Source: a virus. From it: 24,728 nt of DNA. Numbering within the stretch: the stretch's first letter is position 1; every line of letters begins with the position of its first letter. Below the pieces are notes generated by a model. That model ran no database searches, was not told the DNA's origin, and saw nothing but the letters and a program-made list of their open reading frames with translations. Shown one piece after another: positions 239 through 8,434 of the stretch. The stretch lies in the IMG/VR virus record IMGVR_UViG_3300042470_000708, positions 1 through 24,728 of that record. One strand, given 5' to 3'. The translations under genes were made by a program, and so were the position numbers.

Positions 239-1996
239 TTACTCCTCAGTCTGCGCTTGCGTGCTGTTGAAAAGCTCTTTAGCCTTGCGGTTAAAGAACT
301 CAATCTTCTCAGCCAGCGTAGTGCCTGGAATGCGTGGCCGCTGGCTTGCAATTCTAATACTGTTTTGATATGGCTTTTGGTCTCCTTCCAAAACAATGAA
401 CAGGCTCTGTTTTGCTCGCGTGACAGCTGTATAAATCAGCTCACGAGACATCATTGTTGCATGACTATTGTGAAGAAACAGAAATACACGCTCCCATTCG
501 CTGCCTTGACTCTTGTGAATGCTGAGTGCATAGCCAAAAGACATTGTGTTTATTTCACCGGCAGTGGTTAAAACACGTTCAGTATCAAGATCAGGAATGT
601 AAACTGTGATTGTGTGACTTGCCAGATTCTTTGCATCTTCGTCTGCACCAGAGGTGCCTCCGAGTGCTGCAAGCATCTCATCAAGAGATTTTTGCTGAGT
701 GCTTTCCTGAGTGGCACTATTGAATCCCCAACGATCAAGATGTTCTGACTCAGCCTGCGGCATCTTTCCACCATACCCAATGGCATGATTGATTTGCCGA
801 ATGACTGCCTCATGCCGATCAACCATAACACGATCACCGACGGCCCAATATGTCGCCTGATACCGTGCGATGACTTCGTAAACAATGGCTTGTCGTTTTT
901 TGCTGAGATAATCTGCAATGATTTTGTTGACTTCAATCGTGCCAAATTTCTTATTAAAGGGCATGAGAATCATGTCCTTCTCAGGATCAAACTCTCCAGA
1001 TTCAATGATGCGAGGAAGAAACTTGCGCATCATAAGAGATGCATCTTCAAAGTCTACACGCTTTTTCCAGGGCTGGAAATGCACCCGGCCATGCTCACCA
1101 TTGTCAACAGTAGTTGAGCCATCTGCCGGGGGAATGAATGGAATATCCTTGAGGGATTCAGTCCGTACAGCCGTGGCCAAAGATATGATTGGAGAGAGAA
1201 GTGCTTGTCTGTAAACGTGCGTGAGTTCCACAATGGGAAGCTCTGCAAGTTTGAAGCCTAGAATACTGGGACCAAAGACTGGCGGAATCTGGTTTAGATC
1301 ACCTAGAAATATGAACTGCGTAGCGGCCGGTCGCGGCAGTGCAGCAAGCAGATTGGCAAACAAATCTGTGCCAATCATACTTGATTCTTCACAAATCACA
1401 GTAGAGATATGCGGCAGCTTTGCACCAGCATGATAGCTTGGTTCAAAACGCATCGTTTTACGCATATTGCCATCAGAGTCTGGCACTTCATAATAGACCG
1501 GAGCATACTCTAGGATTTTATGAATGGTCAAACAGTGATTTTGCAAATGCTGCGGCAGCTTCTTGCGAATATTGTTGACTGCTTTGTTTGTGTATCCGAG
1601 GATTGCAATGCCCGGAGCTTCATTATTGAGATGCTTCGTGCCTGCAGACAGCGGCAAGACATGGCTGCTGCGTTGCAGTCTTGAAATGAGTTCTTGTGTG
1701 ACTGTGGTTTTGCCGGTGCCTGCTGCACCAATGAGGCAAAAGCTTTTGGCTTGCAAACCGAATTCTATTGCTTGCAATTGTTCTGGATTAAAGGATAGCG
1801 TGGCTGCACCTGCGCCTATGGCGCCTTGTGAGACAGTGGAAGATAATGGAGCTGAAGAAAGAGCCGCATCACCGGCGGCCTTCGGCCGTTGGATCGGCGC
1901 TGCTGCTTGCACATTCTGTGCCTCAGATAACTTGAGAAGTCTTTCAGCATGCGCTTTGCGTGCTTGTTCAATCAATGCTTGAGTTTTTGGATTCAT
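239..1996 (-). CDS. SF1B DNA helicase (RecD/Dda-like)
   Basis: This 585-residue protein carries the ordered motifs of a superfamily 1 helicase: Walker A GAAGTGKT (90-97), Walker B ICEESSM (201-207), motif III GDLNQIPPV (232-240), motif IV-like LTHVYRQ (258-264), motif V SIHKSQGSE (492-500) and motif VI YTAVTRAKQ (522-530). The TAVTRA and KSQG signatures are those of the RecD/Dda branch, ATP-driven 5'-3' helicases used in phage replication initiation and recombination. The first ~80 residues are Ala/Ser/Gln-rich and probably flexible. The start at 1996 follows a sigma70-like promoter by about 60 bases, but no strong Shine-Dalgarno site is visible. A further gene follows after a 4-base gap. It is the only clear replication gene in the window and lies next to the iteron region. 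Confidence 0.92.
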   Translation of the reverse strand: MNPKTQALIEQARKAHAERLLKLSEAQNVQAAAPIQRPKAAGDAALSSAPLSSTVSQGAIGAGAATLSFNPEQLQAIEFGLQAKSFCLIGAAGTGKTTVTQELISRLQRSSHVLPLSAGTKHLNNEAPGIAILGYTNKAVNNIRKKLPQHLQNHCLTIHKILEYAPVYYEVPDSDGNMRKTMRFEPSYHAGAKLPHISTVICEESSMIGTDLFANLLAALPRPAATQFIFLGDLNQIPPVFGPSILGFKLAELPIVELTHVYRQALLSPIISLATAVRTESLKDIPFIPPADGSTTVDNGEHGRVHFQPWKKRVDFEDASLMMRKFLPRIIESGEFDPEKDMILMPFNKKFGTIEVNKIIADYLSKKRQAIVYEVIARYQATYWAVGDRVMVDRHEAVIRQINHAIGYGGKMPQAESEHLDRWGFNSATQESTQQKSLDEMLAALGGTSGADEDAKNLASHTITVYIPDLDTERVLTTAGEINTMSFGYALSIHKSQGSEWERVFLFLHNSHATMMSRELIYTAVTRAKQSLFIVLEGDQKPYQNSIRIASQRPRIPGTTLAEKIEFFNRKAKELFNSTQAQTEE

Positions 1997-2061: not shown

Positions 2062-2090
2062 AATGTAACACGGCGGCTAAAGCCTGTCAA
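2062..2090 (-). promoter_or_regulatory. Leftward sigma70-type promoter for the helicase operon, with TGTTACA overlap
   Basis: On the minus strand there is a perfect -35 TTGACA (complement of 2085-2090), a 17-base spacer, and -10 TACATT (complement of 2062-2067) preceded by TG, giving an extended -10 TGTTACATT. The start of transcription would be near 2055, about 60 bases before the helicase ATG. The 12-mer TGTTACATTATC here is identical to the -10 region of the rightward promoter at 2728-2739. The TGTTACA part is the repeat unit of the inverted arrays. A small palindrome GGCTAAAGCC (2075-2084) lies in the spacer. Confidence 0.65.
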
Positions 2091-2178: not shown

Positions 2179-2241
2179 TAATTTTGTAGACTATGTAACA
2201 ATGTAACTGTGTAACTTGTGTAACAGTGTAATAGTGTAACA
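2179..2241 (+). repeat. Left iteron array: six TGTAAC units, inverted relative to 2494-2564
   Basis: Six copies of TGTAAC (one TGTAAT) start at 2195, 2203, 2211, 2220, 2228 and 2236, so the spacing is 8, 8, 9, 8, 8. The outer flank ATAATTTT..ACTATG (2179-2196) is matched, with two differences over 22 bases, by the complement of 2543-2564. The array is thus one arm of a long imperfect inverted repeat around 2242-2493. Such evenly phased short units are typical of initiator or repressor binding sites. The binding protein is unknown. Confidence 0.88.
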
Positions 2242-2357
2242 GTACCCGTCCACCCTCGGGGGGGGGGCCAGACCCACATATAAAGAAAACAACAATAGAC
2301 ACACACAGACCTACCAATACAAGACCCCCTTTTTGGTTTGCCCTATACACCCCATAC
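2242..2357. other. C/A-rich segment with a nine-G run between iteron array and AT core
   Basis: The top strand is C- and A-rich and nearly free of G, except for nine consecutive Gs at 2259-2267. The segment has runs such as CCCCC followed by TTTTT around 2324-2334. No convincing gene is present. It mirrors the G-rich, C-poor segment on the other side of the AT core, so the strand composition switches at about 2358-2401. Confidence 0.5.
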
Positions 2358-2401
2358 AAAATTTTAGAAATATGAAATGAAAATAATAATTATTTAATAT
2401 A
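2358..2401. other. AT-only core, possible DNA-unwinding element
   Basis: These 44 bases contain only three Gs and no C. They sit midway between the two inverted iteron arrays. An AT-rich stretch beside iterons is the usual layout of a replication origin's unwinding element. The role here is inference; no DnaA-box consensus was recognised nearby. Confidence 0.5.
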
Positions 2402-2467
2402 GGGGGGTATATGTGTATGGATAGGAGAGGGATAGGTAGTATTGTTATTTATAATGGGGAGAGGTAT

Positions 2468-2492
2468 GGGGGCCGGGGTCCGGGGGGCGGGG
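2468..2492 (+). other. G-quadruplex motif
   Basis: Four G-runs of 5, 4, 6 and 4 bases (2468-2472, 2475-2478, 2482-2487, 2489-2492) are separated by loops CC, TCC and C. This satisfies the standard G4 pattern with very short loops. It abuts the right iteron array, which starts at 2494. On the plus strand it would lie in the G-rich strand of the 2402-2492 segment. Confidence 0.7.
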
Positions 2493-2493
2493 T

Positions 2494-2564
2494 GTTACCA
2501 TGTTACACTGTTACATGAGTTACAATGTTACAATGTTACAATGTTACATAGTGTATAAAATTAT
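2494..2564 (-). repeat. Right iteron array: seven GTTACA units
   Basis: Seven copies of GTTACA (the first GTTACC) start at 2494, 2502, 2510, 2519, 2527, 2535 and 2543. The spacing is 8, 8, 9, 8, 8, 8, so it shares one 9-base step with the left array. The outer flank (2549-2564) is the complement of the left flank with two differences. Read outward on the plus strand, most units are TGTTACA, several followed by AT, which also resembles an extended -10 box. The array therefore could bind an initiator, a repressor or RNA polymerase. Confidence 0.88.
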
Positions 2565-2707: not shown

Positions 2708-2736
2708 TTTACTCGGGATTCCGACTCTGTTACATT
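2708..2736 (+). promoter_or_regulatory. Rightward promoter P2 with TGTTACA in the -10 region
   Basis: TTTACT (2708-2713), a 17-base spacer and TACATT (2731-2736) preceded by TG give an extended -10 (TGTTACATT, 2728-2736). The 12-mer TGTTACATTATC is the same as in the leftward promoter at 2059-2070. Transcription should start near 2743, which places the hairpin at 2742-2756 at the very 5' end of the RNA. Confidence 0.6.
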
Positions 2737-4253: not shown

Positions 4254-5489
4254 ATGGCTGACAAGCAAAATTCTGACAAGAAGCCCGTAGACTACGGCGA
4301 AGTTTTAGTCGAAGCACTAAAGCGCACGCCAGGAAACATTGCGGGCGGCGGCGTTGACCTTGTAAATATGGCGCTAGGACTATTGACGGGCAAAGGACTT
4401 AAGGGATTTGTTGATAAGCCTGTAGGTGGAAGTGAAAGTATCAATCAAGCTGTTGGATTGAAGCAAGGGCAAGATCCGGCACAGCAGGCCGCAGAAGCCG
4501 TGTTAGGAATGTTCAGCCCCGGCAGCATGGCTACGCAAGCCGCAAAAACAGCAGGCATTGGGGGCGCGGCAGTTTTGGGCATGCTGAAAACCCTAAATGC
4601 CGGAGGCGCTAAGCCGGCAGGGAAAAGTGCAAGTCAACGAGGAGTAATTATCCCCGGCACGCCAGAAACTGCAGAATTGCTGAATGTCAAAGATGTAGTG
4701 GATCGCGCCGCGGAAATGAGTGCTGCAGGCAAATCTGCATTCAGTATTGAACAAGAAGCAATGAATGCACTCGCAGCCAAGAGGAACCCGGGCGGCGCAT
4801 TTATCGTATATATTGGCCCAGATGGAACGCCAAGAATTAAGATTGATCCTGCCGTTGCACAACTCAATCCTACTTTTGAAAAATCTCTGCAGACTGAATA
4901 CACTCGGGGCCGCGGAGGACAAGTCACATTGCCGAAGTCGATGGGACCAAGTAAAGATGATATGCTAGGGCCCGCAACATTGCTTAGTGACATTCTTTAT
5001 CATCCTAGTCTATTTGACATTTCTCCTGCTGCGCGCACAATGCAAGTACAAACAAATTTTTGGTATGATTTGTTGCAAAAAGCTGGAGGATATAACAAAG
5101 ACCTTAATACAATTGCCCTGCCTATGACTACATATCCTCCTACTCGCATGAGTAGAGATCCTGCTGGAGCACTCGTAGATACTTTGTTGCACGAAGCAAC
5201 ACATGGTATTCAAATGGAAAACAAAGTTAGAACTGGTGGAACATCAACTATTGCCAGTATCAAAGAAGCAATAAATGCTGCAAAAACACAAGGAAGTTAC
5301 CGCAGTCCGGAGGAATTGGACAGGCTAGAAAGATATGTGAACGCACTGGAAAAAATGCCTGATTCTCCTGCAAAAGCCTCTGCGCTAGAGACATTGTATA
5401 GGAGTAATTATGGGGAATTTGAAGCTAGACTAGGGAGTCAGTACGGAAAAAGTTTCCCAAGTCAAGTAGAGCGTGGATCTATCTATTGA
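4254..5489 (+). CDS. Putative virion-associated zinc metallopeptidase (large-polyvalent-protein type)
   Basis: The 411-residue protein has a Gly/Ala-rich, partly hydrophobic N-terminal half (residues 25-125) and a C-terminal domain with LLHEATHGIQ. H313, E314 and H317 form an HExxH zinc site. A downstream GEFEARLGSQ (387-396) offers a third acidic ligand. The HExxH..Q plus GE.EAR pairing is a feature of metallopeptidase domains in phage large polyvalent proteins, which are thought to be injected or packaged. Substrate is unknown; host-protein cleavage or capsid maturation are possible. It opens the late operon ahead of the putative small terminase. The start at ATG 4254 lacks a clear Shine-Dalgarno site. 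Confidence 0.65.
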   Translation: MADKQNSDKKPVDYGEVLVEALKRTPGNIAGGGVDLVNMALGLLTGKGLKGFVDKPVGGSESINQAVGLKQGQDPAQQAAEAVLGMFSPGSMATQAAKTAGIGGAAVLGMLKTLNAGGAKPAGKSASQRGVIIPGTPETAELLNVKDVVDRAAEMSAAGKSAFSIEQEAMNALAAKRNPGGAFIVYIGPDGTPRIKIDPAVAQLNPTFEKSLQTEYTRGRGGQVTLPKSMGPSKDDMLGPATLLSDILYHPSLFDISPAARTMQVQTNFWYDLLQKAGGYNKDLNTIALPMTTYPPTRMSRDPAGALVDTLLHEATHGIQMENKVRTGGTSTIASIKEAINAAKTQGSYRSPEELDRLERYVNALEKMPDSPAKASALETLYRSNYGEFEARLGSQYGKSFPSQVERGSIY

Positions 5490-6706: not shown

Positions 6707-8434
6707 ATGCGATTGTCTAACATTGCATTGGCAATCAGTGTTATTTATGGAGGAGTCTTTACTCCTGCTAGCTTGTTTGCCAATGGCGAACAAGGCGCAT
6801 GGTACGACCCCAGCGATCTGACTACGCTGTTCCAAGACTCCGCAGGCACCACGCCTGTTACGGGGGTGGAGCAGTTTGTGGGGCTGATGCTGGATAAGTC
6901 GAAGGGGTTGGTGCTGGGAAGTGAGATTGCTCCAAGCACAAACTATTCTTCGGGGTGGACTACGCAATCAGGAGTTGCGCTTCCCGGAACGACTGCAGTT
7001 TATACATCTGTCGCCAGTAACAACGGTGCATATTTTGGGGGCGGAGCAAATATTGTTGCCGGTCGGTTTTACGAAGTTACGTACACAATATCTTCGCTGA
7101 CGGCTGGGGGTCTTGCCGTTTACATTGGCGGAACACCGAGCACTGTCACTAGAACAGTTGCCGGAACGTATACGGAAAGGATAGGAACGGTAGCCACAGA
7201 TGGTTTTGTTACCCTACGCGCCGTTGGCACTACTACTGCCGTAATTTCGTCGTTTTCGATTAAACAGGTCACTGGCAACCACGCCACCTCCACCGGCACA
7301 AAACGCCCGAAGCTGGCGGCGAGGTACAACCTGCTGACTTATACGGAGCAGTTTGATAACACTGCCGAATGGGATAGAACCACTTCACCGTGCACTGTTA
7401 ATGCCAATACCGTCACGGCACCAGACGGTACTACAACGGCAGATACGATAATTCCCACGACGGGCAATAGTGTTCACGCACTTTATAGCCAAAACAAAAG
7501 TTTTGTAAACGGTACAACGTACAGACAAACTCTTTATGTTCAGGCAGCAGGCTATAACTTTTGGCAATTTACAACCGGCTTAACAGGCGATTACATAAAT
7601 TTCAACCTGTCTACCAAACAAGTCGGCAATTCAACGGCGTTTTTTACTGGAACCATTCAAGATGTTGGTGGCGGCTGGTGTAAGTGCGAAGTGACATTTA
7701 CGTCAAGCCTTACCAGCAACCAAAGCATTCGAATTGTTCCGCTTAATGCAGACACTGCGGCGCGTCTACCTTCATTTGCCGGCGACGGCACCAGCGGCAT
7801 CTACATCTGGGGCGCAGACCTCCGCCCCGCCAGCCAAGCCACGGGCCTGATCGGCCCCACCTACCAGCGCGTGGTGGACGCGGCGACTTATGACACTGCG
7901 GGGTTCCTGCCGTACCTGCAGTTCGACGGCATTGACGATTCGATGTCTACGGGGAGTATTGACTTCACCGCTACCGACAAGATGACGGTTTGGGCGGGGG
8001 TTAGGAAGTTGAGTGATGCTGCGGTTGGCGCGGTCACCGAATTGAGCGCGGCGTTGAATGACGGCTGCTTCAGCATCCTTGCGCCTAGAACTGCGGCAGA
8101 TAACAGATCTACGTGGACTTCTCGCGGAACTGCGTCTAGCAACGCCATTACCAATAACCTGCCGGCACCCATTTCTTTTGTCATTACAGGTATTGGTGAC
8201 ATTGCGGGAGATATTAGTTCTGTAAGAACTGATGGTGTATTGCGAGCAACCAACACCGCAGACCAAGGCACGGGCAACTACGGCAACCATCCTCTGTTCA
8301 TCGGCCAACGCGGCGGCTCCACTCTGCCATTCAACGGCTGGCTGACAAGCCTCATTGTCCGTGGCGCACAGTCCACGCAAAGCCAGATTGAGGCGACGGA
8401 AGCGTGGGTCAACGGGAAAACTGGAGCCTTCTGA
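6707..8434 (+). CDS. Receptor-binding fibre/spike with lectin-like domains
   Basis: The 575-residue protein starts with a hydrophobic adapter (1-25), then WYDPSD (32-37) and LFQDSAGTTPVT (41-52), a phrase shared by many phage and prophage fibre proteins. Two beta-rich carbohydrate-binding-like modules follow (about 78-190 and 208-372; the second opens NLLTYTEQFDN). The C-terminus (about 400-575), starting near LQFDGIDDSM, resembles a LamG/concanavalin-type sandwich. This architecture fits a host-glycan-binding virion protein. Base composition changes along the gene, with GC-rich patches near 7785-7960, as expected of shuffled modules. A strong AGGAGA site precedes the ATG. The signal-like N-terminus could alternatively be an insertion into the particle base. 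Confidence 0.75.
   Translation: MRLSNIALAISVIYGGVFTPASLFANGEQGAWYDPSDLTTLFQDSAGTTPVTGVEQFVGLMLDKSKGLVLGSEIAPSTNYSSGWTTQSGVALPGTTAVYTSVASNNGAYFGGGANIVAGRFYEVTYTISSLTAGGLAVYIGGTPSTVTRTVAGTYTERIGTVATDGFVTLRAVGTTTAVISSFSIKQVTGNHATSTGTKRPKLAARYNLLTYTEQFDNTAEWDRTTSPCTVNANTVTAPDGTTTADTIIPTTGNSVHALYSQNKSFVNGTTYRQTLYVQAAGYNFWQFTTGLTGDYINFNLSTKQVGNSTAFFTGTIQDVGGGWCKCEVTFTSSLTSNQSIRIVPLNADTAARLPSFAGDGTSGIYIWGADLRPASQATGLIGPTYQRVVDAATYDTAGFLPYLQFDGIDDSMSTGSIDFTATDKMTVWAGVRKLSDAAVGAVTELSAALNDGCFSILAPRTAADNRSTWTSRGTASSNAITNNLPAPISFVITGIGDIAGDISSVRTDGVLRATNTADQGTGNYGNHPLFIGQRGGSTLPFNGWLTSLIVRGAQSTQSQIEATEAWVNGKTGAF

Follow-up and report, generated by a model that had tools for sequence, protein, structure and literature searches.

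What is the function of a pair of short phased repeats, inverted around an AT-rich segment, at the point where the genes of a bacterial podophage diverge? This question is raised by IMG/VR record IMGVR_UViG_3300042470_000708, a linear contig of 24.7 kb that was analysed over its whole length (24,728 nucleotides, referred to here as the window). A first-pass annotation, made from the sequence alone, proposed that the locus is a candidate replication origin or a silencer of divergent promoters. Based upon its portal, terminase, and capsid proteins, the window phage groups with the Pseudomonas phages PaP2, 119X, and PaMx41 (Fredfastierviridae) and with the Polaromonas phage Tiera. No paper was found on the replication origins of PaP2-like (Fredfastierviridae) podophages, and replication initiation in this group appears to be uncharacterised; the locus offers a direct test of replication start, of the early-to-late switch and of episomal persistence in these phages. 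The early genes all run leftward and the late genes all rightward, away from the repeats, and replication starting there would thus be co-directional. The replication genes of the closest complete relative encode a family-A polymerase, a DUF3987 primase-like protein, a Sak4-like protein, a PD-(D/E)XK nuclease, and a Dda-like helicase.

Architecture of the inverted arrays

The features of the window upon which the following analyses are based are listed below; the two arrays, their outer flanks, and the sequence between them will be referred to as the element.

239–1996, minus strand: Dda-like SF1 helicase, the first early gene (phrog_325, E 3.6e-62)
2062–2090, minus strand: early helicase-directed sigma-70 promoter, TTGACA-N17-TACATT, with a single TGTTACA (2064–2070) overlapping the −10 box
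2178–2193: left outer flank of the inverted repeat (ATAATTTTGTAGACTA), from the inverted-repeat search
2194–2241, minus strand: left iteron array of six units of the TGTTACA type on this strand, in steps of 8/8/9/8/8
2242–2357: left inner segment, C-rich, with a ten-G run (2258–2267), holding AACAATA
2358–2401: AT core, a candidate unwinding element; a 40-mer inside it is the least stable of the window
2402–2492: right inner segment, G-rich, with the shared core motif TATAGGGGGGTATA at its start
2493–2549, plus strand: right iteron array of seven units of the GTTACA type, in steps of 8/8/9/8/8/8
2550–2564: right outer flank, mirror of 2178–2193, from the inverted-repeat search
2708–2736, plus strand: candidate late-directed promoter, TTTACT-N17-TACATT, with TGTTACA (2728–2734) over the −10 box, as also in L006, L007, and L008
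2915–3523, plus strand: p202, a 202-aa protein adjacent to the element, with the acidic-hydrophobic C-terminal tail EIDLDIL

The coordinates (2179–2564), unit numbers, and steps that the first-pass annotation gave for both arrays were correct on re-count. The TGTAAC units of the left array start at positions 2194, 2202, 2210, 2219, 2227 (degenerate, TGTAAT), and 2235, and the GTTAC units of the right array at 2494, 2502, 2510, 2519, 2527, 2535, and 2543. In an inverted-repeat search, the arms 2194–2241 and 2493–2540 showed 83% complementarity, and those bearing the outer flanks (2178–2215 and 2527–2564) 87%, which bears out the matching flanks and the symmetry of about 390 bases described earlier. 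The symmetry is in fact wider than was described, as each outward promoter also carries TGTTACA in its −10 box. Because the unit TGTnACA is nearly palindromic, the polarity of the left and right arrays differs mainly by the central base, and this difference is retained in relatives.

When up to two mismatches were allowed, TGTTACANTGTTACA matched the window 14 times compared with 0.16 expected, 12 of these matches lay inside the arrays, and no shuffled sequence reached 14. The array pair is thus beyond chance. Plasmid centromeres resemble arrays of tandem units and poly-C/G runs break assemblies, so that a partition (centromere) site or an assembly artefact may also be considered; however, together with chance, these explanations are very improbable. 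Chance is excluded by the above shuffle test, an artefact is contradicted by the recurrence of the architecture in many independent contigs, and a partition site is disfavoured, as the early regions scanned yielded no recognisable ParA/ParB- or ParM-type gene and a search of plasmids with the helicase gave no match. Runs of 8–16 G or C flank the arrays in several relatives (e.g., window 2258–2267; G015 contig 1–40), and as the G015 contig begins in such a run, contigs may break at these places.

The segment 2358–2401 had been described as AT-only, but it contains three G, with A or T at 41 of its 44 positions. The description of the inner segments as C-rich and G-rich holds roughly, although the left one also contains the ten-G run. 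The AT core was the least stable 40-mer of the entire contig in 13 of the 18 contigs tested (the window, G002, G003, G005, G008, G015, G016, G018, Kuura, Tiera, L008, L089, and L095), including Kuura, whose genome is 63% GC; it was not the weakest site in the other five (G004, G010, G012, L084, and G019). Two motifs recur in the 27 cores compared, viz. ATACCCC/CCCCTAT (14 cores, across iteron classes) and AACAATA (11 cores), where the maximum for each in shuffled sequences was 6–8; these mononucleotide shuffles preserve the base composition of the cores but not their relatedness. In addition, conserved TATACCCCCTATA-like elements adjoin the AT core. A search of Rfam with this DNA gave no match.

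Conservation of the layout and a possible packaging terminus

Relatives were collected by a pattern scan of viral contigs and by homology searches with the helicase, the portal, the terminase, and the adjacent 202-aa protein. The first-pass annotation had made its proposal dependent on conservation of the arrays in related phages, and such conservation was found. The layout, consisting of inverted arrays with 7–11-bp steps that lie about 170–370 bp apart around an AT core, is kept in Fredfastierviridae-like podophages including PaP2, Tiera, and about 25 metagenomic contigs. In these relatives the element is located at the early/late divergence, usually 2–3.6 kb upstream of the large terminase gene; in the window this distance is ~6.5 kb and extra genes intervene. 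The repeat letters are lineage-specific, with at least ten interchangeable alphabets, among them the following.

TGTnACA: window clade, L089/L095/L091, G017, G012, L203, L210
TGCCAGAA: G002–G005, G018, G019
TGTATC: G010
TGTGCTTCA: L084
TGACA: L213
GTGAC: L200
TGTTC: L223
TGTAG: L197
CAAGGT, about 10-bp steps: PaP2-like
GGGCAGTT: Kuura

A conserved cis element with interchangeable alphabets constitutes a natural experiment on the evolution of initiator/operator specificity. With a threshold of six units, our array detector gave a signal only at the element locus in the phage contigs scanned. Many terminase-bearing contigs had no detectable element; these are often fragments that end before the locus, and some carry degenerate arrays. 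Searches of phages at the DNA level yielded nothing useful, and a single fragment was matched in the bacterial genomes searched. At positions 4510–4950 of L092 (IMGVR_UViG_3300024429_000038), a contig in which no gene of this phage group was detected, an AT core is likewise enclosed by inverted TGTAACAT/ATGTTACA arrays, with a gap of about 337 bp.

The location of the element upstream of the terminase genes is consistent with a third possibility, absent from the first-pass annotation, for which Kuura provides one piece of evidence. The small terminase subunit or a partner would bind the arrays, and the concatemer would be cut within the element to give a terminally repeated end; we regard this packaging role as improbable. 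The terminal repeat of Kuura, which is 606 bp long as called by PhageTerm (PMC9959647), has its start in the stretch that separates the AT core of the Kuura element from the right-hand units, and terminally redundant ends were also reported by PhageTerm for Shea (PMC13348215), a PaP2 relative with 98.6% identity. However, the Kuura end is the single one mapped, and Kuura, whose arrays are weak, is only distantly related (22% portal identity). Although the GenBank records of PaP2, 119X, and PaMx41 begin inside the element, this is possibly mere convention, and since the records of the related phages TF17, Neko, and FBPa48 begin elsewhere, record starts were not accepted as physical ends. Further, a packaging site needs no single units over promoter −10 boxes, and in terminal arrays of the T7 type the repeats are direct, at 13-bp intervals, rather than inverted. 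Lastly, the recognition helix of the small terminase (S-x-SYISQLKAD) is nearly constant across phages with different iterons, which makes this protein an unlikely reader of the repeats, and as a candidate for that role it was disfavoured.

Outward promoters and the register of the repeat

The late-directed promoter is weaker than the early one, and in both of them TGTTACA covers the −10 box in the same register. Counted from the first base of TTGACA, GTTAC lies at precisely 21 bp in each of the nine TGTTAC-class contigs with this flank, and GGCAT at the same distance in all six contigs of the TGCCA class, although these contigs are not fully independent, the nine comprising perhaps four or five lineages and the six a single clade. 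No match to GTTAC or GGCAT was obtained at the other offsets from TTGACA that were sampled. Within the candidate early promoter of PaP2 there are two ACCTTG units. The shared repeat letters suggest that a single protein may recognise the arrays as well as the promoter unit.

The element may act solely as an operator or silencer, where a phage repressor would nucleate on the arrays, loop them, and keep both outward promoters off via the −10 units, the AT/G-rich core being incidental or a melting site for transcription; we consider this rather unlikely. The placement of an iteron over the early −10 box in a fixed register in two iteron classes, and over the late-directed one in the window clade, is in accordance with such a role, as is the near confinement of TGTTACA to the element locus in these contigs. 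A fast change of operator letters, which is typical of immunity specificities, points in the same direction. So does the PaP2-like phage Shea, which forms turbid plaques and superinfection-resistant carriers (PMC13348215). However, a role of this kind accounts neither for the core being the weakest duplex of most contigs nor for the core motifs common to different iteron classes. Additionally, the early genes that were scanned included none recognisable as repressor-like, and the remaining iteron classes examined showed no iteron over the early −10 box.

Some further promoter-like sequences were noted. TTGACA promoters with the iteron of their class over the −10 box also occur outside the element at G012:15948 (minus strand) and G004:8896 (plus strand), and they perhaps drive other controlled operons. 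In the window, a TTTACTCGGG element is repeated at 2627–2642 and 2702–2717; the second copy supplies the −35 box of the late-directed promoter, and the first may be part of a second promoter (TTTACT...GATTAT).

A possible replication origin and its candidate reader

The sequence evidence gives about an even chance that the element is an iteron-type origin and that the protein bound to it controls the divergent promoters as well. It would then represent a bipartite, mirror-symmetric origin combined with the operator of the early and late-directed promoters. A phage-encoded protein would bind the units, one per 7–9 bp, until both arrays are filled, and by bending or bridging the 250–350-bp core it would melt the AT core, which could then admit the Dda-like helicase, the primase-like DUF3987 protein, and the family-A polymerase, with loading in both directions. 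At a high concentration of the protein, the single units over the −10 boxes would also become occupied and the promoters shut, a parallel to iteron-plasmid initiators that repress their own promoters. The binding protein would change in step with the iteron letters, which would explain why the architecture stays fixed while the letters differ.

Indirect support for an origin comes from the presence of iterons together with the least stable DNA of the contig, from the conserved layout, and from the position at the early/late divergence. Shea persists as an unintegrated episome (PMC13348215), a state that needs an origin. Against an origin, the cumulative GC skew, which had been suggested earlier as a check, showed no origin-like minimum at the element and thus lends it no support; the relatives were inconsistent, and in several of them the skew peaks there. 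Pfam and PHROG scans of early genes revealed no canonical initiator, five contigs have DNA weaker than the AT core elsewhere, the promoter rule was not observed in the remaining iteron classes examined, and the Kuura terminus inside the element also fits a role in packaging. The operator-only and terminus readings are not mutually exclusive with that of an origin. Thus, the origin and silencer functions proposed at the outset have both gained indirect support (conserved arrays and weak core; motif over the −10 box), although neither is proved.

Comparison with known systems shows a number of similarities. In iteron-type theta origins (plasmid RepA/RepE, phage lambda ori), tandem short repeats also lie beside an AT-rich unwinding element and, as in the autoregulation of initiators, a promoter is overlapped by the repeat motif; however, these have one array on one side, whereas the element has two inverted arrays around its core, a 7–9-bp unit, strong C/G tracts by the core, no recognised initiator, and a skew that is not origin-like. 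In the herpesvirus origins oriS/oriL, boxes for the origin-binding protein are inverted around an AT spacer between divergent promoters. The element resembles them in this layout, but it has far more units, regular phasing, and no homology to them, and is not a member of this group. In the T7 SRL/SRR terminal repeat arrays, short repeats likewise flank non-coding DNA on either side, and in one relative the element too lies near the genome end, but the T7 CCTAAAG arrays are direct, with mostly 13-bp steps and no inverted copies, whereas those of the element are inverted with 8-bp steps. The met boxes of MetJ and the omega heptad arrays are operators of ribbon-helix-helix proteins with near-palindromic tandem units of 7–8 bp and an 8-bp step. 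The element has units and a step of this kind, but its arrays form an inverted pair with an AT core between them, and no ribbon-helix-helix protein was recognised. Lastly, mycobacteriophage stoperators are likewise repeated phage operator units that overlap promoters, but they are scattered over the genome (PMC9283540), whereas the unit described here is nearly confined to one locus. The combination of inverted arrays, exchangeable letters, and the weakest duplex matches no origin that we could name.

The element predicts a new DNA-binding protein. In the members examined, a gene for a protein of 200–240 aa with an acidic-hydrophobic tail adjoins the element in either orientation, and this protein is the best candidate for one linked to the element and may be its reader. 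These neighbours form four sets, viz. the p202, G028/G029, TGCCA-clade, and PaP2/Tiera families. The G028/G029 family is homologous to p202 (hhalign probability 75%, E 2.4e-5), and the other two families show no sequence support for homology to p202. For the TGCCA-clade protein, profile comparison gave no support and the structural model was poor (pLDDT 51), and its relation to p202 thus rests on layout. The predicted structure of p202 was fair (pLDDT 83); p202 had no match in Pfam, PHROG, or PDB, and a fold search of PDB and BFVD with the model gave none. A 223-aa early protein appeared to track the iteron class, but it was rejected, as local identity is inflated where its short homologues align with the conserved C-terminal domain and nothing else; none of the early proteins tracks the class, and an unbiased search for early proteins specifically shared by distant TGTnACA-class genomes found none. 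It is conceivable, though we think it rather doubtful, that the element exemplifies a new replicator class, in which a two-armed symmetric iteron origin would also serve as early/late operator and packaging terminus, and would be read by a fast-evolving family of adjacent proteins that have an SSB-like acidic tail and no known relatives, protein and repeats co-diversifying within a fixed architecture.

Tails such as EIDLDIL, LDLDMI, AVNLDLI, and VSVDSL occur in p202 and in early proteins of L089 (5388–5846, 8050–8685, and 9723–10394), and they recall the C-terminal tails of SSB. Another L089 early protein (7337–7924) matches PHROG 624 (DNA binding protein) and, with a weak score under the curated cut-off, the Pfam family of pyrimidine-dimer glycosylases. 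In the window, a 411-aa protein without a PHROG match (4254–5489) carries a HEATH zinc-metalloprotease-like motif (LLHEATHGIQ).
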